Assembly: GCF_000303155.1 (NCBI RefSeq)
Contig: NC_018719.1
Span: 930,001 to 994,000, forward strand
Length of the DNA: 64,000 nt
Direction of reading: 5' to 3'
Source: Candidatus Nitrososphaera gargensis Ga9.2
GTDB taxonomy: Archaea > Thermoproteota > Nitrososphaeria > Nitrososphaerales > Nitrososphaeraceae
Part shown: positions 35,067 to 47,802 of the stretch, one piece after another
Layout: each line of letters opens with the position of its first letter
How positions within the stretch are numbered: position 1 is the first letter of the stretch
The notes under the pieces: generated by a model
The model's input: the letters and a program-made list of their open reading frames with translations, nothing else
The model's database searches: none
What the model was told of the DNA's origin: nothing
Program-made: the position numbers and the translations under genes

Positions 35067-35203
35067 GGGGTCGTAGCGAAGCCAGGCATCGCAACGGGCT
35101 CCAGATCTAACATACGAGGGCTAGGTTAGAAAAGAAACCCGTGGGTCAAGGGTTCAATTGATAGCGGTTAGCCACCGCGTCAGAACAGATCCCTTCGGCC
35201 CCA
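35067..35203 (+). tRNA. tRNA-Trp (CCA) with two introns
   Basis: The acceptor stem is GGGGTCG with CGGCCCC (discriminator A at 35203). The D-arm is GCGA...TCGC with GG in the loop, and the anticodon stem is ACGGG...CCCGT around CTCCAGA with anticodon CCA at 35101-35103. Intron 1 (35105-35136, 32 nt, after position 37) has CTAAC/GTTAG pairing. Intron 2 (35158-35188, 31 nt) splits the T-loop after position 58: joined exons read GGTTCAAATCC, the consensus. Intron 2 contains a GCGGT/ACCGC hairpin and TGAT/GTCA helix. The spliced length is 74. No CCA end is encoded. Confidence 0.88.
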
Positions 35204-35205
35204 CT
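35190..35205 (+). repeat. attL: 3' end of tRNA-Trp
   Basis: TCCCTTCGGCCCCACT, covering the tRNA 3' end from T-loop position 60 plus two bases beyond the discriminator. An identical 16-mer lies at 45527-45542. It begins two bases after the T-loop intron ends. Confidence 0.75.
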
Positions 35206-35216
35206 CATCTTCATCA

Positions 35217-35224
35217 AAAATTTA
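35217..35224 (+). repeat. 8-bp target duplication, left copy
   Basis: AAAATTTA directly outside the left inverted repeat, repeated in the same orientation directly outside the right one (38584-38591). The AT-rich sequence is almost self-complementary, so part of it could also be read as an extension of the inverted repeats. Confidence 0.55.
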
Positions 35225-35263
35225 GATTTTGTTTAACCTGAGGGTGTCGCGAACGGTTGTTGA
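35225..35263 (+). repeat. Left terminal inverted repeat
   Basis: It begins GATTTTGTTTAA and ends AACGGTTGTTGA. The two ends are identical to the reverse complement of the right copy; the seven mismatches lie in the middle (positions 13, 16, 17 and 24-27). Confidence 0.7.
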
Positions 35264-35301
35264 TTTTCGGTTGTTAGCATCTTCGCGCTGTTAAGTCTAT
35301 A

Positions 35302-36315
35302 ATGGAACAAGTCAGATTTCCGATGATACCAAGATTTCCTGAAAACGTACCATACTACAACAAGGATGAGTTTATTAGGCACCTACACAAGCTACAGCCA
35401 ACCATGACTATTTGCATTGCTGCAATTTGTGAGGATTGGGACGGTGCCTTTCCGCGTATAGTATTTTGTGCAGATAGATTAGTTACTGCACTCATACAGT
35501 ACGAATCTGGTCAAACGAAGATTACAAGATTAACACCATACTGCTTTGCGCTTTCATCGACAAATAACTCACAAGTATCAGATATGATTTTGGAAAATGT
35601 CAGAGAGAAACTAGAAAACGAAACTAAACATTTGAAAATAAAGGAAATCACAGAGATGGTAAAAGCCGAGCTGATCAATGTCAAGAATACTAGTATTGAA
35701 GAAGATGTTCTTGCAAAATATAATTTAACTGCAAAAAAAGTCAACATTGATCCGGCAGAGTTTGCAGACAGAGCAATGAACGAAGTAAGCAGGTATCGTT
35801 ATCCGTTAGTATTTGAATGTGTGATATTGGGATTCGACTCGCCAACTGAGGCGCATCTTTATACGATTGAACAAGATGGAAAGTACTATCTTTGGGACTC
35901 TCCCGGTTTTGCCTACGCTGGTAGTGGTGGATTCCTTGCATTTTTGCAGATAGCAAAATCACGTCATACGAAGCAAGACCCTGTATCTAGAACTATATCA
36001 TTGGTTTATTTTGCCAAAAAGGTATCTGAGATGGCTGAGGGTGTAGGAAAAAAGACAACCGACTTGTTCGTGTTATATCCGCATTGGGACGATCCAAATA
36101 AGATGGGTGATCCAGATACCGCTTTGTATCTCCTGTACAATCCAAATAGACAAGCACTTTTGTCAACGCTTGATAAGGCATTTGAAGATATTCAAAAATT
36201 TGAAGAACAGAAAATCGAGGAAATATCGCACTTGATTGATGAAGCATTAACGCCCAAAGAAGAAGCCAAATCTGATGATGAACAGGCCGAAAAGAAAGAC
36301 GATGAAGAAAAATAA
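35302..36315 (+). CDS. Proteasome-beta-like Ntn hydrolase, transposon cargo
   Basis: 337 residues from ATG 35302, or 303 from ATG 35404. The latter start would place the candidate nucleophile Thr directly after Met (MTICIAAIC). The core MTICIAAICEDWDG followed by VFCADRLVTAL parallels the Thr1 strand and the Asp17 loop (ADKRAT) of proteasome beta subunits. A later GFDSPTEAHLYTIEQDG and SGGFLAFLQIA also fit the fold. The last 30 residues are Glu/Lys/Asp-rich. Cellular proteasome genes are elsewhere, so this is a mobile relative of unknown role. Confidence 0.65.
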   Translation: MEQVRFPMIPRFPENVPYYNKDEFIRHLHKLQPTMTICIAAICEDWDGAFPRIVFCADRLVTALIQYESGQTKITRLTPYCFALSSTNNSQVSDMILENVREKLENETKHLKIKEITEMVKAELINVKNTSIEEDVLAKYNLTAKKVNIDPAEFADRAMNEVSRYRYPLVFECVILGFDSPTEAHLYTIEQDGKYYLWDSPGFAYAGSGGFLAFLQIAKSRHTKQDPVSRTISLVYFAKKVSEMAEGVGKKTTDLFVLYPHWDDPNKMGDPDTALYLLYNPNRQALLSTLDKAFEDIQKFEEQKIEEISHLIDEALTPKEEAKSDDEQAEKKDDEEK

Positions 36316-36328
36316 TTGATTGATCGGC

Positions 36329-36508
36329 TTACTCTGTCTGTTCTTGACTTTTGGGTTTTAGGATAAGTTTGCCATCTTTTACTATCACTTCTAAATCAGT
36401 GCCTTCTTCCCATCCTACGCGCTCGACATCTTGCGGGGGTAAATTAACTATCCACTTAGAATATTCTCTATGGCCCACCTTGCGGTTGAACCGCCTCTGG
36501 AGCTTCAT
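36329..36508 (-). CDS. SpoVT/AbrB-like DNA-binding protein
   Basis: A 59-residue protein with a swapped-hairpin AbrB pattern: a basic N-terminus MKLQRRFNRKVG, SKWIVNLPPQDVERVGWEEG and a final strand LEVIVKDGKLILKPK. Such proteins are dimeric repressors, often antitoxins or regulators of mobile elements. It lies convergent with the Ntn-hydrolase gene and divergent from the transposase, whose promoter holds three TTAGG-CCTAA repeats that could be its operators (inference). Confidence 0.75.
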   Translation of the reverse strand: MKLQRRFNRKVGHREYSKWIVNLPPQDVERVGWEEGTDLEVIVKDGKLILKPKSQEQTE

Positions 36509-36541
36509 AATACATGACTTAGGGATACTTGTTAATAAATG

Positions 36542-36594
36542 TAGGCACCTAAAGGTTTATATAATTAGGCACCTAATTAGTGTTAGGTGCCTAA
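36542..36594. promoter_or_regulatory. Three TTAGGyrCCTAA repeats at transposase promoter
   Basis: TAGGCACCTAA at 36542, TTAGGCACCTAA at 36565 and the inverted form TTAGGTGCCTAA at 36583. A TATA element (TTTATATAATTA, 36556-36567) overlaps the middle copy. The arrangement suits a repressor binding site for either divergent gene. It resembles the arms of the palindrome at 25692. Confidence 0.6.
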
Positions 36595-36595
36595 A

Positions 36596-37774
36596 ATGCA
36601 AACAAGCACAAATAACGGGTCAGAAGCTCGCATGACTAGAGGATTGCAGATACTTGAAAGTGGAAAGAACATAGTTGAGAACGAGGACGGAAGCTTTACT
36701 GTTCCTTCTCAAACAAGCAAAACGACCTATGAAGTGCGCTTAATTCAGACAACATGGGTATGTACCTGTCCTGATTTTGAATACCGCAAGGTCGAAGCCT
36801 GCAAGCACATTTTTGCCGTAAGGCTATTCATAGCTGCTAACACGTACATCAAGAATGAGCCAAAGCCCAAAGTATTTGCAGAGGATGCTATCCCATGCGA
36901 CAAGTGCGGCTCTATCAGGGTTATCAAGTTCGGCATTGCCAACAAGAAACAAACCTACTATTGCAAAGACTGCAAGCATAAATTCAGACAGGCATCAATG
37001 CTCAAGAAAGCAAAGTTCAATCCTGAATTGATATCTCTGACGCTAGACCTCTATTTCTCTGGCCTGTCATTAAGGAAGATTGCTCGCAGCGTAAGTGATC
37101 ACTTCAATGTCGATATTGGCTACGCAACCATCTACACATGGATTCAAAAGTACATCCCTCTCATATCCGAGTATGTTAACTCACTGGTACCAAAGGGGCT
37201 TTCTGATACATGGCACGCTGACGAGCTATTTATAAGAATGAAAGATGGTGTACAAGTCAGGAATAACAAGTCGGTAGGCATTGTCTGGAACATAATGGAC
37301 AGAGACACTAGGTTCCTGATAGCATCCAAGCTGACAGAGGATAGGGGAGAAGAAAGCGCGATTGCAGCGTTCAGAGAAGCCATAAGGAACGCTCATGCCT
37401 ACAGAGCAGAAGCAAAACCAAAGCAGATTTACACTGATGGGCACAAGGCGTACGAATCTGCAATATCCACACTGTTCAGGAAAAAGTCTATTCGACCAGA
37501 GCATAAGGCTAACTGCGGCGTTGCAAAGCCTCATGCTAACAACAACCGAATTGAAAGACTCAATGGAACGCTGAGGGAAAGGACAAAAGTGCAGCGCGGC
37601 TGGAAATCAAAACAGACACCGTTAGCAGAGGGTGCAAGAATACAATACAACTTTGTAAAGCCGCATATGGCACTAGAGGGAAAGACACCGGCAGGCGCAG
37701 CGGGTATGGAAGTTAAGGGGTGGAACGAATTGCTTGCAAAAGCGATGGATTCTAAGAGGCAACAAGCTAGCTAA
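36596..37774 (+). CDS. IS6/IS240-like DDE transposase with SWIM and zinc ribbon
   Basis: 392 residues from ATG 36596. Residues about 40-75 carry a SWIM finger (CTCPDFEYRKVEACKH), and about 100-130 a zinc ribbon (CDKCGSIRV...YYCKDCKHKFR). An HTH-like segment (LSLRKIARSVSDHF) precedes the DDE domain: TWHADELFI, IYTDGHKAYESA and NNRIERLNGTLRER give the D, D and E. The reading frame is intact, so the enzyme may be active. Confidence 0.9.
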   Translation: MQTSTNNGSEARMTRGLQILESGKNIVENEDGSFTVPSQTSKTTYEVRLIQTTWVCTCPDFEYRKVEACKHIFAVRLFIAANTYIKNEPKPKVFAEDAIPCDKCGSIRVIKFGIANKKQTYYCKDCKHKFRQASMLKKAKFNPELISLTLDLYFSGLSLRKIARSVSDHFNVDIGYATIYTWIQKYIPLISEYVNSLVPKGLSDTWHADELFIRMKDGVQVRNNKSVGIVWNIMDRDTRFLIASKLTEDRGEESAIAAFREAIRNAHAYRAEAKPKQIYTDGHKAYESAISTLFRKKSIRPEHKANCGVAKPHANNNRIERLNGTLRERTKVQRGWKSKQTPLAEGARIQYNFVKPHMALEGKTPAGAAGMEVKGWNELLAKAMDSKRQQAS

Positions 37775-37832
37775 TATATTGCATCTGTCAATTGCATATC
37801 GCTTGTCTGCTGGCAATGTTGAAAGGACTCAC

Positions 37833-38531
37833 ATGGAAATCCCTTCAATAGAATTATCAGAACGTACTTTGACTGACATTTGTACCATTATTGATGAACA
37901 AAGACAGCAAATTGATGGTGAAGAACCACGCGTTACTTACACGGTTAAAGAAAAAACCAGAGATTTTGTGACGCATAATTCTGAGGATTTTATCAAGCAC
38001 GCCATAACTCGGGAACTTGGAAGAATTGAGATTTGGTATTATCATAGTAAGAGAAAAATCAGAATTGATCTAGTGGTCAAGTCTTATGGTCATTCAGATT
38101 TTACAGTAGAGGCCGACAATCGAATATGGGTAGACGGAATAACCAGAAGATTAGAAGGTGTATTTAGAAGCTACAAAACAAATAACGACCTTTTTCACTC
38201 TCGTTGGAAAAGTGCTATTCCGATCTACATCGGGCTGGGTGTTTTATTAGGCGTCACAATCTTGCTCGTCGGGTCATCCTTTATACCCATTATATCAGAG
38301 GATGGAGAAGATAACACTCTCGCAGCATGGACTTTTATTGGTGGCTTTGTTGGAGCGTGGTCAATATTGGGATGGAACGGACTATTCGAGTGGTTATTCC
38401 CAGAAGTTGAGACAGAGTACACTCCACAGAAAAAATATAGAAAAAGATTATTGACAGTGATAAGCACAGTGCTTGGCACTATTAGTTTAGGCTTATTCGT
38501 AAACTATCTCTTTGCTATACTTCAGAACTAA
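37833..38531 (+). CDS. Membrane protein, transposon cargo
   Basis: A 232-residue protein from ATG 37833. The soluble N-terminal 130 residues are charged alpha/beta. Three membrane helices follow (about residues 130-150, 165-185 and 210-230). It stops 13 bases before the right inverted repeat. No family is recognised. Composition is AT-rich, as elsewhere in the island. Confidence 0.65.
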   Translation: MEIPSIELSERTLTDICTIIDEQRQQIDGEEPRVTYTVKEKTRDFVTHNSEDFIKHAITRELGRIEIWYYHSKRKIRIDLVVKSYGHSDFTVEADNRIWVDGITRRLEGVFRSYKTNNDLFHSRWKSAIPIYIGLGVLLGVTILLVGSSFIPIISEDGEDNTLAAWTFIGGFVGAWSILGWNGLFEWLFPEVETEYTPQKKYRKRLLTVISTVLGTISLGLFVNYLFAILQN

Positions 38532-38544
38532 TCCCAACTTTTTT

Positions 38545-38583
38545 TCAACAACCGTTTCTAACACCCGAAGATTAAACAAAATC
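38545..38583 (-). repeat. Right terminal inverted repeat
   Basis: Read on the minus strand it begins GATTTTGTTTAA and ends AACGGTTGTTGA, matching the left copy at 32 of 39 bases. The 8 bases outside (38584-38591) are AAAATTTA, as on the left. Confidence 0.7.
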
Positions 38584-38687
38584 AAAATTTACAACATTTG
38601 TGATTTTATGTTGCAATTAACATCGATATCATGCTCATGACACGCATAAATCATATCCGTTCTTGCAAGTCCTACATGGGTATATAT

Positions 38688-39005
38688 TCACGCATAAATC
38701 CGGATCTGCACGGTCCGCGGCATTCGGGAAAACGCGAAAAAATGGGACGACTGCATCAGGATTCGGGCATCGACCTTTTTACAAGTTCCATCGCGTAGTG
38801 TCCACCCCCAGGCCATGCCAGAAAAATAAAACTGTTCCAGCAGCGATTCTATCTCCGCGGAATATTTTGCAACATCAGGGTCCATGTACAGTCCGCGTAA
38901 CGTTTCATTGCCCCTGATGAGCTTTCGGATGTGCCGGTCGTGCCGCCGCTTGATGTCGCGGTCCTTCAAGGATAGCGGTTGCGTCCTTTTTGATTTTCTT
39001 GTCAT
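38688..39005 (-). CDS. Unknown basic protein of the island
   Basis: About 105 residues from ATG 39005 (MTRKSKRTQP). It is a strongly basic helical N-terminus (LKDRDIKRRHDRHIRKL) followed by an amphipathic segment (EIESLLEQFYFSGMAWGW). The frame is open back to 39029. The C-terminal end looks less typical of protein. Uncertain. Confidence 0.45.
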   Translation of the reverse strand: MTRKSKRTQPLSLKDRDIKRRHDRHIRKLIRGNETLRGLYMDPDVAKYSAEIESLLEQFYFSGMAWGWTLRDGTCKKVDARILMQSSHFFAFSRMPRTVQIRIYA

Positions 39006-39096
39006 CGGCAGAGACGTTTTCTGTCGCAATATTTAGAATCGCGTTTATCCTTCGTTGTCCTGAAAGGATAAATCAAGCCTAATCACACTAGATCGG

Positions 39097-39960
39097 TTGT
39101 CGACGGACCTTGCAGAGGAGCTAAAAATCCAATCGGTCAGGGATTTAGAGCAAGCGAAGTCAATACTGAAACAGGGAGAAAACTTGGAACATGTTGCTTG
39201 GTTCTGCGAGCAGAGCTATGAGAAGCTGATAAAGCATGTCTATGCGCATTTCAAAATCAAGATACAGAACAGAAGCGTCAGCGGCGTATATGACAAGATA
39301 TTCCGCGCAGGACATTACGACTCACCTGACCTTGTCCTGAACATGCTAGGAGAATTGGCAAGGGAATTCTGGGATATGTATAACAGAGGCCTAAGTGTAC
39401 TACCTAAGTTGTCTGATTCTGATAGAACCATATTGAAACGATTCATAGATAATGTCCCACAAGATGCACTTAGGCGGAATGAACGCCACATAGAATCCAT
39501 AAGAAGGAAGATCGATATGGTAGTAAACAAAGACAAAGAGTTTGAATCATTTCTCAGAAATTCAACTTATGAGAAGCTTCATGAATCCATGATGAAATAC
39601 GACTACAATCAAATTATAGATCAAACTGTTGCGAAGAATACGGCTGGGCTTGAGGGTCTTGTGGGCGTTGACCCGAATGTATTGATGAAGGGAATAAACT
39701 CCCAGCTGTACAAAGACTACTATCTTTTTGTCGCTAAACTTCTGGGCTTGGCAGAATGGCTGTTGCCAAATATTTCAGGATCTAGATACCCTTTAAGGGA
39801 GTCTGGATTTGGTAACCTGAAGCTGTACAGAGAGTTGAATGACCAGCTAATCTTGTTCTTTGGATATATGGTATCTATTCTAGACGGATTGCAGACTGGG
39901 AAAGACCGTTTCATTTCAAGTATAATTTCTATATTGAAGACGGGAAGCGATCAGCATTAG
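39097..39960 (+). CDS. HEPN-like domain protein
   Basis: A 287-residue helical protein starting at TTG 39097. The first 110 residues resemble a HEPN domain (DLEQAKSILKQGENLEHVAW, CEQSYEKLIKHVYAHFK). The canonical R-x4-6-H catalytic motif is not clear; RNERH is the nearest. HEPN proteins are often RNases in toxin-antitoxin or defence systems, here without a visible MNT partner. The island context supports a defence-type role, as inference only. Confidence 0.6.
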   Translation: MSTDLAEELKIQSVRDLEQAKSILKQGENLEHVAWFCEQSYEKLIKHVYAHFKIKIQNRSVSGVYDKIFRAGHYDSPDLVLNMLGELAREFWDMYNRGLSVLPKLSDSDRTILKRFIDNVPQDALRRNERHIESIRRKIDMVVNKDKEFESFLRNSTYEKLHESMMKYDYNQIIDQTVAKNTAGLEGLVGVDPNVLMKGINSQLYKDYYLFVAKLLGLAEWLLPNISGSRYPLRESGFGNLKLYRELNDQLILFFGYMVSILDGLQTGKDRFISSIISILKTGSDQH

Positions 39961-39967
39961 TTATTGA

Positions 39968-40847
39968 TCAAAGATGCGGGATGGCGAGTACGCCTTTGAC
40001 ATATTGTGCCAGCTTAAAAGCTAGCAGGGGAGGAACTGCGTTTCCAATCAGTGTTTCAATTTCTCTCTGTGCAGTAGGAGTGAGTTTGTAATAGAATGGA
40101 AATGATTGTATCGTCAGAGCTTCTATATGATTTAGAACCCGCAGGCCGTCATGGTCTTGAATATGAGCAGAAGTTTTAGCAAATGAATTGTATCTGCATG
40201 TTACAGTTTGATAGGGTCGATGAATCGCCTCCGGTCTGAATGCTTTCAGCTTGGCAGGGCTTTGTGTAAAAAGTAATAACTAATAAAAACAAAGTCATGC
40301 AATCAAACAGCTATCCAAGCATGGATTGTTGACTTTTTAAACAAAGCTGCTTGGCAGATTGCTCCGTGTCAAGATACTTCTGCCCGATTTTATCGGGCTT
40401 AAGCTTGATATTTGAAAAGAATGCTCGCTCACGGCCTTGCAGGACTCCGAAATCTCCTGCATAGAATACCTCTTTGAAAGGAGCCTGAACATAATCAATG
40501 CATTCTGGAACATTTTCCATTATCCAAACTTTGGGTTTGACTTCGTTGACTATTCTCATGAACTCGTCGCACAGTTCAGTATTGCATTCTCTAGTCTTTG
40601 TGTTTGCAGAACTGAACGTCTGGCATGGTGGGCTTCCGATGACAACATCTATCTTTCCCACAAATGGTTTGCCATCAAAAATTCTCAGGTCTTGGCAGAC
40701 TGCATTGCCAATATTTGCTTGGTATGTCTCACAAACAGTATTCCAATTGTCCACTCCTAACACGTGTTTGAATCCTGCCTTTACAAAACCTAGGGAAAAT
40801 CCGCCCGCTCCGCAGAATAAATCAATGAAAGTCGGACCATCGTTCAC
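39968..40847 (-). pseudogene. Cytosine-5 DNA methyltransferase remnant
   Basis: The N-terminal part (from GTG 40847) has motif I FIDLFCGAGGFSLGF, the catalytic motif IV GSPPCQTFSS and motif VI ENV. It stops at 40311. Some 25 bases on, in another frame, the C-terminal part continues with AFRPEAIHRPYQTVTCRY and motif X IGNAVPPLLAFKLAQ, ending at 39968. The target recognition region between motifs VIII and IX is short or lost. No restriction enzyme gene is next to it. It is a decayed orphan methyltransferase or restriction-modification remnant. Confidence 0.8.
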
Positions 40848-40851
40848 TCAT

Positions 40852-40929
40852 TCACCTTTTCTTCTGGACGTGCTTGGCCTTGCACAATGGGCAGATGCAA
40901 GTGTGGCGCTTGATGGTTATGCGGTCCAC
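40852..40929 (-). CDS. Possible Cys-rich microprotein before methyltransferase
   Basis: A 25-codon frame (GTG start) reading ...HTCICPLCKAKHVQKKR, with Cys/His spacing like a zinc knuckle, ending four bases before the methyltransferase GTG. It could be a small co-transcribed gene or the eroded N-terminus of its neighbour. Weak evidence. Confidence 0.25.
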   Translation of the reverse strand: MDRITIKRHTCICPLCKAKHVQKKR

Positions 40930-40995
40930 ATCAATATCGATGTCGATGTGGATTTAAGCCGATTTCGATACTGCATTATATACTTTAGCCTGATA

Positions 40996-42153
40996 CTATT
41001 GAACCCGATAATGCCTTACCACAAATCTATTAGGTACAAATTCAATAATCACTTCATACAGGCCACTGCCATTGGGGTAGCTGTATTCGATGTGATACAT
41101 TATGAAAAGTCTGTTAGGAGGTTCCTGCTGCAACGTTCTGAGACGGGCGATAACAGGTATATCAAATCGTAACGGTACGGTTTCTCCTGGCATAACTACT
41201 GCGGGTGGTCCAAATTGTGCATTGTTAAAGACTTCTGCTGTTGGTTCATCAGCGCGCAATTGTATTACGCTTTGGAATCTGACGTTCTCTGCAGGGAGCT
41301 GACCATAATTCTTGATAAAAAGAATTCCCGTATTGATGATGCCATCCAATGGCTGCCCTAATCTTATCATTTCATTAACGCGCTCTGCAGTAATTTGTTC
41401 TCTGTTAGGAAGGAATATCCCTTCTTCCACCAAATCTTCCCTCCCAAGCCAAGGCCTAAGTTGTGCATTCATTTGTGTTTTGGTTAGAGATACCTGTTCT
41501 TCGAGGTTCTTGTTCTGGCGCCTAAGCTCGATGACTTGATCTTTGGAGAATGACATATTGGTGACAAGAGCAACGACGGTAACTAACCCAACACCTATAG
41601 ACATGATCAAACCAATAAGGGTATAGCCATTTAGCTCTGTCTGCAACTGATCACTAAGTGAAATTACAGGGATATTCCATGTAGATTCCTCTCTTGTAAC
41701 AAAATCTCCTGAAGTTGCATTTGAAATAATTGAAATCAATCTTATTTGGTTCAGGCCTTCCCGATCTGAAAAGAATATTCTATAATGTTCCTTCGAAGAA
41801 AAAGGTTCTACTATTAGAGGATTTGCAAAGCTAAATTGTTTGAAAACGTCCCCACCAACAATCACCTCGAGCTGAGAATCTATTGACAGAGGAAAGTCAG
41901 CCTTATTCTTGTAAAGAACTTTGTATTCCAATTCATCATTTGGAGCGGCAGGTCTGCTTCTAAAGTGATTGTTTATTGTGATATCTCCACTTATGAATTC
42001 ATTCTCAAAACTATAGTTTACAAGCTGACCAGTAAGAGCTTTCGGAAGATTAATGTAAAAGGCAGTCAAGACAGGCAGAACACCGAAAAATAGTACTCCG
42101 ATAATCGCATAGAAAACGATAGATTTGCGCTTTTTCTCTCGGCTACTGGCCAA
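40996..42153 (-). CDS. Two-helix membrane protein with coiled coil
   Basis: A 385-residue protein. Helix 1 (residues 12-33) is followed by a beta-rich extracytoplasmic domain (34-175), helix 2 (176-202), a coiled coil (LRRQNKNLEEQVSLTKTQM, 210-232) and a C-terminal beta domain. The topology would put the last domain in the cytoplasm. It lies back to back with the TIR gene (147 bases between starts). No known family is seen. Confidence 0.7.
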   Translation of the reverse strand: MASSREKKRKSIVFYAIIGVLFFGVLPVLTAFYINLPKALTGQLVNYSFENEFISGDITINNHFRSRPAAPNDELEYKVLYKNKADFPLSIDSQLEVIVGGDVFKQFSFANPLIVEPFSSKEHYRIFFSDREGLNQIRLISIISNATSGDFVTREESTWNIPVISLSDQLQTELNGYTLIGLIMSIGVGLVTVVALVTNMSFSKDQVIELRRQNKNLEEQVSLTKTQMNAQLRPWLGREDLVEEGIFLPNREQITAERVNEMIRLGQPLDGIINTGILFIKNYGQLPAENVRFQSVIQLRADEPTAEVFNNAQFGPPAVVMPGETVPLRFDIPVIARLRTLQQEPPNRLFIMYHIEYSYPNGSGLYEVIIEFVPNRFVVRHYRVQ

Positions 42154-42300
42154 TGACTGTCTAAAGCTTATTATCGTAGAATTCTATATTAATATCTAAT
42201 AGAACTTTCGGCTAACGATTTTGACGGTGAAGAATACAGCGTTGCTAGGCATACTGTTTACACGATAATCTTATTTTCTGGTCAGCGCTAGCAGGCTTGG

Positions 42301-42912
42301 ATGTCCGACACGGAAAATCCTGTGGCCATATTCATCAGTTACAATTCCGCAGATAAACAAATAGCTTCCAACATTGCCATTTTTCTTGCCGCTGAAAATA
42401 TTCCGACGTGGTTTGACGAATGGAAAGTATCTGCTGGCGACTCGATAGTGGGAGAAGTGCAAGAAGGACTGAAGGGATGCACTCACTTCTTGATTTTGTG
42501 GTCGAAAAACTCGAACAAATCGAATTGGGTCAGAAAGGAACTGGAATCGACAATCGCTAGGGCCATACAGACGAAGGTACCAAGGATTATTCCGATACGC
42601 CTTGACGACACGCCATTACCTGCCCTCTTGGCCGATATCAAGTACCTTAGATATAGAGGGGGAACGGAACGCGACCGTTACGATCTGGTCGAATCAATCA
42701 GTGGTAAGAAGCCGAGCGCAGACTTTATCCGCGCGATAGTTAAGAAATACAAGGAAGTCGTCCGTGATCCTGATGCTGAGGGACCTTTTGAATACAAGGT
42801 CTGCCCTGAGTGCGGCTCGGATAACTTGGAAGGTTCGTCATTTGTTTCCAGTGACGAGGAGTTTTACGTCCTAGGATGCAAAGAGTGTGGATGGTCTACG
42901 GTGAGTCAGTAA
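42301..42912 (+). CDS. TIR domain protein with C-terminal zinc ribbon
   Basis: A 203-residue protein. Residues 8-135 form a TIR domain: AIFISYNSADKQIASNI at the start, WFDEWKVSAGDSI, and Glu80 in WVRKELE at the position of the TIR NADase catalytic glutamate. The C-terminus is a zinc ribbon (CPECGSDN...GCKECGW). TIR effectors in prokaryotic defence usually destroy NAD+. A TATA element (ATCTTATTTTC, near 42270) precedes the start. A cyclase-like gene follows after 97 bases, which suggests a signalling pair. Confidence 0.88.
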   Translation: MSDTENPVAIFISYNSADKQIASNIAIFLAAENIPTWFDEWKVSAGDSIVGEVQEGLKGCTHFLILWSKNSNKSNWVRKELESTIARAIQTKVPRIIPIRLDDTPLPALLADIKYLRYRGGTERDRYDLVESISGKKPSADFIRAIVKKYKEVVRDPDAEGPFEYKVCPECGSDNLEGSSFVSSDEEFYVLGCKECGWSTVSQ

Positions 42913-43009
42913 TGGACTGTTCAACGTAGTTGATTATAACATTACAGCCTACAAAATAAACGATGAATGATAGCGAAAAATTTATTGTAAGAAGATACAA
43001 CGATAGTAT

Positions 43010-44039
43010 ATGAATCCCTGGAATTAAGCTTCCAATTCAGCCGAAAGAGCTATTCACCGAGGGTACCCGCGAGCTTTCATTGAAAGATCTTACCACTGAA
43101 AATCTTACCACTGAAAAATTGAGCAGTTAAAGGCAGACGGGGAATTGAAATTAGCCACAAAAGAGACGCCCGTATTTCAGGAGGGAATAGTCGCGTACTT
43201 GGACATACTGGGATTTTCAAGGAAGAAGGACGAAGATGAGGTTGACAGGTGCTTTACAGATTTCCCAAATCCCTTGATATATGCCGCAAAAATATTCGAC
43301 AAAGTTCGATTCAGCATGTTTAGCGACTGCGCCGTGTTGGCGGCAGACCAAAAGGACGCGGCTGATCTCATTGCGACTATCCGTTCAGCATTTCGAAACT
43401 GGTCCTTTGACGGAATCTTGGTACGCGGTAGTATCTGCCTAGGAACTTACGTCGAAAGGAAATCTATATTCTATGAGACTGCGCCACCTAACTTCAGGGG
43501 GGTTTATCATTTCGGGTACTGGCCTTGTAAAAGCTGCGAAGCTGGAAGAAAAGAAGCCAGCCGCGTTGCTTTTCACAGACGATGAATGCGCTAAATTTCT
43601 GAAAGAGCGATATCAAGAACCTGTGTTCTGCTACGGTCCATACAAGGTAATCGGATGGTCCGATGACCCTGCTGTTCTCAAGTGGTTTATGGGAGTATCC
43701 TTGGTGAGAGCCCTAAAACTTCTAGCAACGAAGAATAAGAAATTTCGAGACCCTGTAAAGAAAATGCTCATTAGTGTTAATCATGCTCTTGAATTTGACA
43801 AGGACTACTTCCTCCATGGTTTGATGTTGATGACATTGTCCGCTCCCTTCGTCCATCCTTGGGCAAAAAAGATAGTTTGCGATATACTCGGTATAAAGGA
43901 AGCCCACTTCCAAAAAATTAAGCCTGCAATAGACGGAGCTTTGAAAGGCAGAAATGGACTTCAATTTTTAGAAGGGCTAGCCGATTCCGATTCTAGTATG
44001 CCTTCTTATGTGCATGTCAAGGACCCTTTGAAAGATTGA
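43010..44039 (+). pseudogene. Nucleotide-cyclase-like gene, frameshifted (PycC-like?)
   Basis: Start ATG 43010, about 25 bases after a TATA element (AAAAATTTATTG). Three single-base shifts, in CCC (43017-43019), AAAAA (about 43115) and GGGGGG (43495-43500), split one protein of about 340 residues. The middle part reads EGIVAYLDILGFSRKK, with the class III cyclase metal Asp, then MFSDCAVLAA with the second Asp, and RGSICLGTYVERK. The next frame gives GGFIISGTGLVKAAKLEEKK, the usual continuation in Pycsar-type cyclases. All breaks are in homopolymers, so they could be sequence errors. Confidence 0.65.
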
Positions 44040-44096
44040 CTTCAACGCTACGGATTACAAGTTAAATACTGAGGTTATTTTCTATTCGTAGTCTCT

Positions 44097-45371
44097 ATGG
44101 ACTGGTCAGAAGTTCAGAAGCTTATAGGAGACCTAGAACGAGTGCGAGTAGATTACAAAGAAACACCCTACTTAGAAGCAGATCCCAAGGATATTGCAGC
44201 CGATTTGGTGGCATTTGCGAATAGACAAGGTAGACATATCCTTGTTGGAATAAAGGATGATAAATCAAAGGAAGGCAAGAAAATCAATGCAGACGAATCC
44301 CAACTGCGGATCTTGAACATTGCAAACAATAATTGCAGTCCTCCAGTCAGTTTATCCTTTGACTTCCATTCTGCATCGGATGGGGATGTTTTGATAGTAT
44401 ATGTTCATCGCAAAAAAGACATGCCGCATGCGGTTGTGGAAAGAAGAGGCGCAGAGATTTACCGAAGAACCTATTATGTCAGAAGCGGCGGTGGTAAGCG
44501 TCTGGTCGATGATAGTGTTCTCCGGTTTCTCTTTCGTGAGCAATTTGAATTAGAGATAGATACTGCTGCTAGCCTATGTTTTTGGTACGATCGTTCCTCT
44601 CCTACCCAAAATATCATGGAAGGGGTCGCGGATTATTCTAATTACATGTATGCATTTTTGAAGAGACTTAATTCATCAGATTTGCAACAGTTATTATCAG
44701 ACGAGAAAAAGATGATGGCAGGGTTAATACTGGAAATATTTCCTTATGCCTTTCTTCTGGATTTGTCATGGCGGTTTACATTTTCCTGGGCTTCTAGAAT
44801 CAATCGTGGCTCAGACGTTATGTCTTCATTCACCCCTTCAAGAGCTGCGGACCTACCGTCAAGTAATATTACTTACAAAGAAATTCCCCTTCCTTCTGGG
44901 CCTACCCTATCAAAACTTTCACTTGACGTAGCCCAAGTATTTCGAGAATCCCCGTTTCAATTAAAACTCCCGAAAGGTACAACAATAGAAATAGAAAATA
45001 GATCAGAGGATACATTTCTCACCCTCAAGAATCCTAAGTTTACAGTAAGCATTGGTATGTCAATTAGTAATTGGAATGAAGGACTGCCCTATCCTGTTGC
45101 CTTGCCCGAAGGAGAGGATAACGATGAAAAATATGCATTTGTCAAATTCAATATGATGTTTGACGCAGACTTCAATCTGCCAGATGTAAGTGACGATCTC
45201 TTTGAAGAACACAGCAAATTTGTTCATACGATTGAAGATACTATTCTGAATGAATGGCATTGGGATGTAGTTGTTGCCAAATTGAAGGACAGACGCATCG
45301 ATAACATACAAAATAACGTAAGGAATATTCTTGCTTACATGGAAAATCCCGATCCTGAATATGAAAGTTGA
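44097..45371 (+). CDS. AlbA_2 (Schlafen-type) domain protein
   Basis: A 424-residue protein. Residues 1-150 match the AlbA_2/Schlafen module: RVDYKETPYLEADPKDIA, then FANRQGRHILVGIKDD, and PHAVVERRGAEIYRR. This module occurs in transcriptional regulators and in defence proteins. The rest (150-424) is unrecognised, soluble, mixed alpha/beta. The start is 57 bases after the cyclase-like gene stop on the same strand, so it may belong to the same unit. Confidence 0.8.
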   Translation: MDWSEVQKLIGDLERVRVDYKETPYLEADPKDIAADLVAFANRQGRHILVGIKDDKSKEGKKINADESQLRILNIANNNCSPPVSLSFDFHSASDGDVLIVYVHRKKDMPHAVVERRGAEIYRRTYYVRSGGGKRLVDDSVLRFLFREQFELEIDTAASLCFWYDRSSPTQNIMEGVADYSNYMYAFLKRLNSSDLQQLLSDEKKMMAGLILEIFPYAFLLDLSWRFTFSWASRINRGSDVMSSFTPSRAADLPSSNITYKEIPLPSGPTLSKLSLDVAQVFRESPFQLKLPKGTTIEIENRSEDTFLTLKNPKFTVSIGMSISNWNEGLPYPVALPEGEDNDEKYAFVKFNMMFDADFNLPDVSDDLFEEHSKFVHTIEDTILNEWHWDVVVAKLKDRRIDNIQNNVRNILAYMENPDPEYES

Positions 45372-45526
45372 CTAAAGTCGCTATATCGCTAGTGAATTCT
45401 AAATCCTTTCGTTGTTTCATACGTCCAGCAGAACCGAAATCCCGTTTTTCATCAGAACACAACCATGGTTCGCTTAACTGAAATCGCTAAAAATTCAAAA
45501 AAGCCCCACCTCAAATTTCCAATAGG

Positions 45527-45542
45527 TCCCTTCGGCCCCACT
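45527..45542 (+). repeat. attR: second copy of tRNA-Trp 3' end
   Basis: TCCCTTCGGCCCCACT, identical to 35190-35205, with no tRNA body before it. It marks the far end of the island. The surrounding stretch 45372-45688 (317 bases) holds no other feature I can support. A 67-codon open frame runs through the repeat (45465-45668) but has unlikely composition. Confidence 0.75.
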
Positions 45543-45688
45543 TTTGCACCTATTAAGGTCATTACCATCAGAATCTTTCCTCAAAATAGGCTTTTCAAAC
45601 TGCTTGCTCAGCCTGTCACAAAAATGATACTACAAACCTTATGCCCAGCCGATTTTCTCTCGAGGTAGCAAATGCTTGGCAGAACTAA

Positions 45689-47107
45689 GTGAAATTAGTG
45701 ATTAAACTGTTTTCCGTGTTTCTTACAATAGCCGTACTAATAATCATAGCTGGGTATCTGGGCTATAATCAAGTAACCAATTCATCGGCCTTTTCCAAGG
45801 TAGAAAGCGACGACATGCCTGCATTATGGGCTCTTGGTGATATCGAAGCTGCCATCCTCCGCATAGAGCTTGAGCCAAGTGAATACATAGTCAAGTCCGA
45901 TAAAGAGCATTCTGAAGAGTTGCAGGAAGCAAAAGAAGAGATACTGGCCGCGCTCGAAGTATATGGAAATGGGGGCGTGAAGAAAAGGCAAGCGAGATGG
46001 CACAGGAAGTGGAAGAGCTCATCTCGATGGGCAAAGAAATATTCCTGCTAAAAGACAGCGGGGTTTCTGAGCAAGTTCTTGAGCAAAAATTCGGGCAGCT
46101 TGATGATCCCTTGGACGCATTCACAGAAGAGCTGAACAATGAAGAGCTGCTGATCTCTCAATATGCAGAGAGCTCGCTTATGGTAGTCAAGGACGACATA
46201 CAGCTTACTCTCAATGTGACTGCCGCCCTTGCCTCGGTTGTTGCAGAGATAGCGACAGGCACAGGCATCTATAACACATACTCGATCTCAAAGCCAATCT
46301 CAAAACTTCGAAATGCCGCCCGCGAAATAGGCAGTGGCAACTTTGACGTTGAAATCCCTGCAACAAAAAGTGCAGATGAGATAGGTGAGCTGTCTGCGCA
46401 ATTTAGAAAAATGAAAGAAGATCTGATGCACAAGGAAGAGATGCAAACGAGTTTATCAGCGTGACATCTCACAAGCTTCGCACGCCGATCTAGCCAATCT
46501 TGGGATTTGCCGACCTTGCTCTGAAAGGGCAGGTGCCGGCAGACGAAGCACTAAAAGTGATAGTAAAGGAAGCCAGGAGGCTCCAGCGGCTTACAAATGA
46601 CATCTTGGATGTGAGCAGAATAGATGGAGGCAGGATAAGCTATATGATGGAGGAGATCAAGCTTAACGACCTCGTCCTGAATGTGATAAATTCGGCACGA
46701 GTCAATGTCGGCGACAGGGTGTCGCTCAAGACTGCCATAAATACTGAAAAGGATCTGGTCATCAGGGGTGACAGGGAGCGGCTCATGCAGATGCTGACCA
46801 ACATACTTGGCAACGCCGCCAAGTTTACAAAAGAAGGCGCAATAACTGTGGAGACTGGCTACAGCGACCGCGGCAAAGGTGACGTAGTGATCAAGGTCAG
46901 CGATACCGGCGGAGGCATACCTGGGGAAGTCCTACCAAACCTCTTTGGCAAGTTCGTGACCAAGAATGTCGGCAACGAAAACAAGCAGGGCACCGGTCTT
47001 GGGTTATTCATAAGCAAGGCAATCGTCGCGGCTCACAAGGGAAGCATCTCTGCGCACAACAAAGACGGCGCCAGTTCACAATATCGCTGCCTGTCAATGC
47101 AAGCTAG
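45689..47107 (+). pseudogene. Dead sensor histidine kinase
   Basis: The parts of one HAMP histidine kinase lie in different frames. A GTG start with a membrane helix (LFSVFLTIAVLIIIAGYLG) leads to a frameshift in GGGGG near 45972. A second helix and HAMP region (ISKPISKLRNAAREIGSGN) follows. A shift near 46449 precedes the H-box (ISVTSHKLRTPI), which is followed by an in-frame TAG at 46490-46492. The ATPase (NILGNAAKFTKEG, DTGGGIPGE, GTGLGLFISKAI) comes next, with a last shift near 47073. Nonsense plus frameshifts mean true loss. Its likely partner, the response regulator tail to tail, is also broken. Confidence 0.88.
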
Positions 47108-47607
47108 CGAACATACTTCAATCTCTTTGCAAAATCCGTTATCTTTTCTTTCGTAAGGTCCGAGTCTTTCATCTGGCCGATCTCTTCGTTCAGCTTTTCT
47201 AGCATGCCGTATGCCTTTTTGCTTTCTATCACGCTGACAAGCTCGTCAAGGTCGAATGGCTTTTGGATTATTTCATTGACCTTCTTTAGCTTCTTGATGG
47301 AATCAAAAAGAATATCCTTCAAGTACGTGGTAGCAAATATTATCCTCAGTCCTGGGTCTGCGGCAAGAATCTATTTTGCCACTTCTATTCCATCGCGTAT
47401 GGGCATCCTGTGGTCTAGCAAAACAACATCAAATGGCCTGTCGTTTTTTGCCTGCTGTCTGTTCGCCTTATACATTCCGACGCAGGCGTCACCATCGTTG
47501 ACAACCGTGATTTCGTGCTTCATACCTTCAAGCGCTAGTTTGTACATGCGGGCTATTGATTGCTCGTCTTCTGCCACGAGGATTTTCAATACGCGCCATG
47601 CATGCAT
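47104..47607 (-). pseudogene. Response regulator receiver with in-frame amber stop
   Basis: A CheY-like receiver domain: ILVAEDEQS acid pair, VVLLDHRMPIRDG with the phosphorylated Asp, FATTYLKD, and QKPFDLDEL with the conserved Lys. One TAG (47371-47373) after GIEVAK interrupts an otherwise open frame of 168 codons. A helical tail follows the domain; there is no output domain. It lies tail to tail with the dead histidine kinase and overlaps it by four bases, so the two were probably partners and decayed together. Confidence 0.85.
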
Positions 47608-47676
47608 GCTGCAAAGATGCAGTTAAGTATTTTCTAGAAAATTCCTTAGAAGGCGCTGCTCGGAGTGGCGGCTATA

Positions 47677-47802
47677 TTATACCATGCTGTACTTTACTTT
47701 GCCACTTGTCCTTTCTTTTTCCATCTTTTGTCTCTTGTAACAGTCAAAGCAGAGGTCGTTGTAGGCGGTCTCGATTTTCATCCTGCAAATCAGGCACAGC
47801 AT
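47677..47802 (-). CDS. Zinc-ribbon microprotein
   Basis: A 41-residue protein with two cysteine pairs, CLIC near the N-terminus and CFDC about 15 residues later, then a basic tail (KRQKMEKERTSGKVK). This is a compact zinc ribbon. It starts at ATG 47802, 20 bases after an AT-rich element (ATATAATAACTAACC on the plus strand). Confidence 0.6.
   Translation of the reverse strand: MLCLICRMKIETAYNDLCFDCYKRQKMEKERTSGKVKYSMV

Follow-up and report, generated by a model that had tools for sequence, protein, structure and literature searches.

The tRNA-Trp gene of Candidatus Nitrososphaera gargensis carries an inherited T-loop intron next to the attachment core of an integrated island

The tRNA-Trp(CCA) gene of Candidatus Nitrososphaera gargensis Ga9.2, a soil-type ammonia-oxidizing archaeon, is interrupted by two introns, the rarer of which splits the T loop, and its 3' end forms the border of an integrated island. 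Given the structure of the gene, the conservation and covariation of its introns, the islands that adjoin it and the stretch at which these recombined, we consider it very likely that this is a functional single-copy gene, the introns of which are most likely spliced, that the T-loop intron is present by descent, and that the integration took place later, on the 3' side of that intron. In mechanistic terms, the archaeal (alpha-beta)2 splicing endonuclease would most likely cut both introns out of the primary RNA, after which the exons would be ligated. The T-loop intron would already have been present in the common ancestor of the sampled Nitrososphaeraceae and would have been passed on by descent. 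At a later time, an integrative element would have recombined with the 15-16 bp of tRNA-Trp that lie 3' of the intron, i.e. the 3' strand of the T stem plus the 3' strand of the acceptor, and its integration would have regenerated exon 3 and placed a second copy of this stretch at the distal border of the island. Since then, the integrase of that island has probably disappeared and an insertion sequence (IS) has probably entered; the order of events and the identity of the lost integrase are what we infer.

The DNA analysed (henceforth the window) is a stretch of 64 kb, positions 930001-994000 of a genome that consists of a single contig of 2,833,868 bp and is 99.85% complete. The gene (35067..35203, forward strand) was read directly from the sequence and comprises exon 1 (positions 1-37; 35067..35104, with the anticodon CCA at 35101-35103), a 32-nt intron at the canonical position 37/38 (35105..35136), exon 2 (positions 38-58; 35137..35157), a 31-nt intron in the T loop at 58/59 (35158..35188) and exon 3 (positions 59-73; 35189..35203). 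As an earlier note on this DNA had proposed, the cloverleaf is complete after removal of both introns: the joined exons (GGGGTCGTAGCGAAGCCAGGCATCGCAACGGGCTCCAGACCCGTGGGTCAAGGGTTCAAATCCCTTCGGCCCCA) make a normal tRNA-Trp(CCA) of 74 nt with stems of 7, 4, 5 and 5 bp and a T loop that reads GG-TTCAAAT-CC, a standard tRNA being restored once the T-loop intron is taken out. The fold of the unspliced RNA (-49.1 kcal/mol; z = -2.68 relative to shuffled sequences) contains all four tRNA stems, with each intron as a hairpin, one in the anticodon loop and one in the T loop.

Neither ARAGORN nor Rfam (at the gathering threshold) reported a tRNA in the window, and a search of the whole genome with the Rfam tRNA model at a loose threshold still missed the gene. 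That standard tRNA finders overlook it might suggest a decayed tRNA-Trp pseudogene with insertions that are left unspliced. Yet a pattern search of the genome recovered no other tRNA-Trp, neither a second copy in general nor the intron-poor one that the earlier note had named as a reason to abandon its proposal; moreover, the exons are nearly invariant across the Nitrososphaeraceae and the introns vary under a pairing constraint. A pseudogene is thus extremely improbable.

A standard bulge-helix-bulge motif has a core helix of 4 bp and bulges of 3 nt, and is cut after the second base of the bulge. The T-loop intron has what looks like a canonical version, in which GTTC (35152-35155) pairs with GAAC (35183-35186), AA|T and AG|A form the 3-nt bulges, and TGAT/GTCA opens the inner helix. 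The outer helix of this motif overlaps the mature T stem by one base, G53, and because G53 is used in the core, the outer helix would have to shift or shorten before splicing. In the case of the 37/38 intron the core is weak, with two of the four pairs (35099-35134 and 35100-35133), and the motif is a relaxed one with the inner helix TCTAAC/GTTAGA. The bulge-helix-bulge structures on which the earlier note had made its proposal depend are thereby predicted at the T-loop intron in canonical-looking form and at the 37/38 intron in relaxed form.

The note had also called for a splicing endonuclease of broad specificity. The genome encodes two proteins of the family PF01974. The alpha protein (181 aa) matches the closest solved enzyme, endonuclease 3p1z, along its whole length and has GIDHAP in the region of the catalytic His; the beta protein reads EKKPAKY at the corresponding place, with a Lys instead of the catalytic His. 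An endonuclease composed of alpha and beta subunits has been reported for the Thaumarchaeota and associated with introns of the noncanonical type (PMC4090602). Judged by these sequences, both subunits of the two-subunit enzyme are present, the type that is expected to cut noncanonical introns.

A pattern search based on the 5' half of tRNA-Trp recovered the gene in 58 out of 70 Nitrososphaeraceae genomes, and an intron at 58/59 is present in all 57 in which the readable part of the gene extends into the T loop (one of these genes ends inside the intron, at the end of a contig). The 50 distinct introns are 23-33 nt long and all contain one of the core tetramers GAAC, GAAT, GGAC or GGAT, each of which pairs with GTTC, by way of G-U where needed at the two variable bases. 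A full inner helix of 4 bp is found in 44 of the 50, as compared to a mean of 17 and a maximum of 25 when the partners are shuffled and to none in slid registers, a control that serves as a guide and not as a probability, related intron sequences being non-independent. The occurrence of several distinct helix sequences (TAAT/ATTA, TGAT/GTCA, TGTT/AACA, TGGA/TCCA, TACT/GGTA and others) is the stronger argument for covariation.

Outside the Nitrososphaeraceae, the T loop is uninterrupted in 36 of 36 tRNA-Trp genes, from the Nitrosopumilaceae (a name that the size and the relationships of our family f11 suggest for it) and two other families. No tRNA-Trp intron at all is present in 19 genomes of the Nitrosopumilaceae type (genera g40 and g41 of f11); in seven f11 genomes from other genera, tRNA-Trp has an anticodon-stem intron together with a long 37/38 intron, and the ten genes from families f3 and f14 have the long 37/38 intron alone. 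With several intermediate families not recovered by the pattern, the gain of the T-loop intron is bracketed here and not assigned to one branch. By this comparison the intron is an old trait of the Nitrososphaeraceae and not a product of the island. The suggestion in the earlier note that such an intron might arise after integration is contradicted here, because all readable members of the family have the intron although most have an empty site.

Several further features of these genes were observed. Of 45 distinct 37/38 introns, 41 carry GGGC (1.5 expected upon shuffling), mostly in an apical position; in the window it lies at 35118-35121. In the f11 genes that have an anticodon-stem intron (L177, L179-L181, L183, L184 and L186), the long 37/38 intron contains C/D-box-like TGATGA motifs and a TTGGAGC that is complementary to the anticodon loop. 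Three genomes (loci L059, L062 and L071) have near-copies of the intron/exon junction (AGAATAAATCCCTT) 12-20 nt downstream of tRNA-Trp. A search of the present genome for other T-loop introns of like design gave fewer matches than the reversed control.

Noncanonical tRNA introns are well known from the Crenarchaeota and Thaumarchaeota, the survey made with tRNAscan-SE 2.0 listing 107 of them for the latter (PMC8450103). The present case is similar in that it concerns a short intron outside the anticodon loop, with a bulge-helix-bulge motif, in a two-intron gene and in a genome that has the genes for an (alpha-beta)2 endonuclease; it differs from the survey in that one and the same T-loop intron is fixed in an entire family and shows compensatory changes.

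Downstream of the gene lies an integrated island of 10.3 kb (35206..45526) with a GC content of about 0.41-0.44, versus about 0.50 outside. It is bounded by two forward copies of TCCCTTCGGCCCCACT, namely the attL core (35190..35205), which extends from T60 through 2 nt beyond the tRNA, and the attR core (45527..45542), the right flank of which (CACTTTTG) resembles that of the empty site in the related genome G030. The attL core thus starts two bases after the last base of the T-loop intron (35188), in agreement with the earlier note. The repeat is exact over 16 bp and reaches 20 of 22 when extended leftwards, where it takes in, imperfectly matched, the end of the intron (AACAGA; the counterpart at attR is AATAGG). 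The element-side arm of attR (45503..45526, forward strand) holds CACCTCAAATTT. Encoded within the island are a protein with a proteasome-like region (PF00227; 35302..36315, forward), an IS240-type DDE transposase (36587..37774, forward) that represents a secondary insertion, a truncated C5 cytosine DNA methyltransferase (40311..40847, reverse), a TIR-domain protein (42301..42912, forward) and a protein with a Schlafen AlbA_2 domain (44097..45371, forward). Two overlapping frames at 43145-44039 resemble one frameshifted gene.

Sequence that matches the window from 47708 onward begins 37 nt after the tRNA end in G030, and sequence that matches from 47892 onward begins about 150 nt after it in G035. 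What is missing from these empty sites is the island plus a further 2.2 kb (45543-47700). The latter stretch has histidine-kinase-like fragments, as assigned by eye; it may have been inserted at an earlier time, or G030 and G035 may have lost it. Neither an integrase nor a remnant of one was found between the repeats, and because no tyrosine integrase gene was found in the entire window, we call the island a remnant, i.e. one without an encoded integrase. Relatives of its genes were not found in the tRNA-Trp neighbourhoods of other genomes, an IS excepted. Two sets of further matches were rejected: a third att copy at 1006945 was judged a chance match, with one mismatch and flanks that do not match, and three viral contigs that contain the 16-mer have unrelated flanks and no 5' half of a tRNA-Trp. 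The ORFs on these contigs look bacteriophage-like by eye.

Most relatives have a single copy of the tRNA 3' end (TCCCTTCGGCCCCA). The genome G041, from a second species, has two on the same contig, where the second copy is located 11.9 kb downstream and bounds a different island, beyond the attR of which the conserved chromosomal order resumes. An intact gene for a protein of 444 aa begins about 50 nt past attL of this island. The protein is tyrosine-recombinase-like by eye, with the order R...YxxR...GH...Y; it has no direct Pfam match, and it shares 39% identity over 433 aa with the product of 1508388-1509683 in the present genome, a protein that matches PF00589. The island also encodes a HerA-like ATPase, named by eye, with weak AAA matches only. 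No homology was detectable between the genes of this island and those of the window island; the attR arms of both share CACCTCAAATTT, with 89% identity over 36 nt that include the core, and this shared arm suggests that the two islands probably used related integrases. A second 3'-end copy in G059 was discarded as an island border, as it belongs to another tRNA-Trp gene at the end of a contig. In G032 (locus L098), a near-copy of the tRNA 3' end (ATCCCTTCGGCCCC) is present 881 nt after the tRNA start and is possibly the relic of a small island.

The lack of an integrase between the repeats would fit with a 16-bp repeat that arose by chance, in which case no island would exist. We consider this highly improbable: an exact 16-mer at a distance of 10 kb is very unlikely and none of the shuffled sequences had three matches at 3 mismatches, a linked second copy occurs in just one relative and bounds an island there too, the GC content is lower between the repeats and relatives have empty sites, and the attR arm matches that of the island in G041, which bears a candidate integrase. 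Integrated elements of Thaumarchaeota are known to target the 3' ends of tRNA genes, with a median att length of 17 bp (PMC6563490). The islands at tRNA-Trp resemble these in their short att (16 bp here) at a tRNA 3' end and, in the case of G041, in the candidate integrase beside attL; they differ in that the att core abuts a T-loop intron and in that the window island has no integrase.

The earlier note had assumed that the intron breaks the sequence which an integrase would normally use. The shared core, which starts at position 60, includes only the 3' strands of the T stem and the acceptor, and the same stretch is used in a tRNA gene that has no T-loop intron. In G002, an integrase that is 47% identical to the G041 type lies beside a tRNA-Lys with an uninterrupted T loop, and a 15-nt repeat (CCACCGAACCCGCAT) extends from about position 62 to past the 3' end of that gene. 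As far as can be read from this comparison, which is made with one other tRNA for which an attR was detected, the footprint of the integrase is the T-stem 3' strand plus the acceptor 3' strand in tRNA-Trp and tRNA-Lys alike. The core would then adjoin the intron because this integrase family recombines at that footprint in tRNA genes anyway and, since the 58/59 intron falls just outside the footprint, the adjacency needs no causal link. Relatives of the G041 candidate integrase also adjoin tRNA-Ala, tRNA-Glu, tRNA-Arg and other tRNA genes (L211, L213, L215, L218 and others); no attR was found for these in the stretch examined. In the two attR arms that are known, the core is preceded by A-Y-A-R-G, which is close to the conserved 3' end of the intron, A-Y-A-N-N. 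The elements might have adapted to an intron-bearing gene, with an integrase that reads intron DNA as part of attB, but this seems rather unlikely.

The adjacency of intron and islands bears on a hypothesis put forward by Randau and Soll and taken up in PMC3293823 and PMC4090602, according to which such an intron is kept as a guard, because T-loop-crossing integrases require the T-arm inverted repeat whose halves it separates. At the DNA level the intron does split this inverted repeat. Of the 52 genomes that have an exact 3'-end copy, only 2 show a second copy linked to it, a rate that refers to tRNA-Trp alone. Nevertheless, two different islands sit at tRNA-Trp despite the T-loop intron, and 10 of 39 documented thaumarchaeal integrations are into intron-containing tRNA genes (PMC6563490). 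The guarding role that the earlier note had envisaged fails for these elements, integration not being stopped because their integrases would use only the part of the gene that is 3' of the intron, and retention of the intron as a guard is in our view improbable, although a weaker protection of a general kind may exist.

Conversely, the intron could have been brought or created by the integrating element, by way of an attP that carries it, as Sugahara et al. (2012) proposed for Caldiarchaeum (PMC3293823, PMC8371274), and the attR flank AATAGG indeed resembles the intron end AACAGA. This is very unlikely, given that every readable member of the Nitrososphaeraceae has the intron, also with empty sites, and that the attR of both islands is without an intron body. 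For the present island an attP-borne intron is thereby contradicted; one could have been acquired in this way long ago, at the base of the family. The disrupted tRNA-Thr of Caldiarchaeum (PMC3293823) likewise combines mobile DNA with an adjacent archaeal tRNA gene that has more than one intron. There, the gain of an intron was tied to integration, whereas descent of the T-loop intron within the Nitrososphaeraceae implies that it long predates the integration.

Two implications follow for the family. An essential tRNA-Trp in the Nitrososphaeraceae can escape the common tRNA finders. In addition, the family serves as a natural experiment on whether tRNA introns shield their genes from mobile elements, and the outcome, valid for one integrase family, is negative for the guard hypothesis: a T-loop intron that is fixed in the whole family did not keep these elements from integrating.
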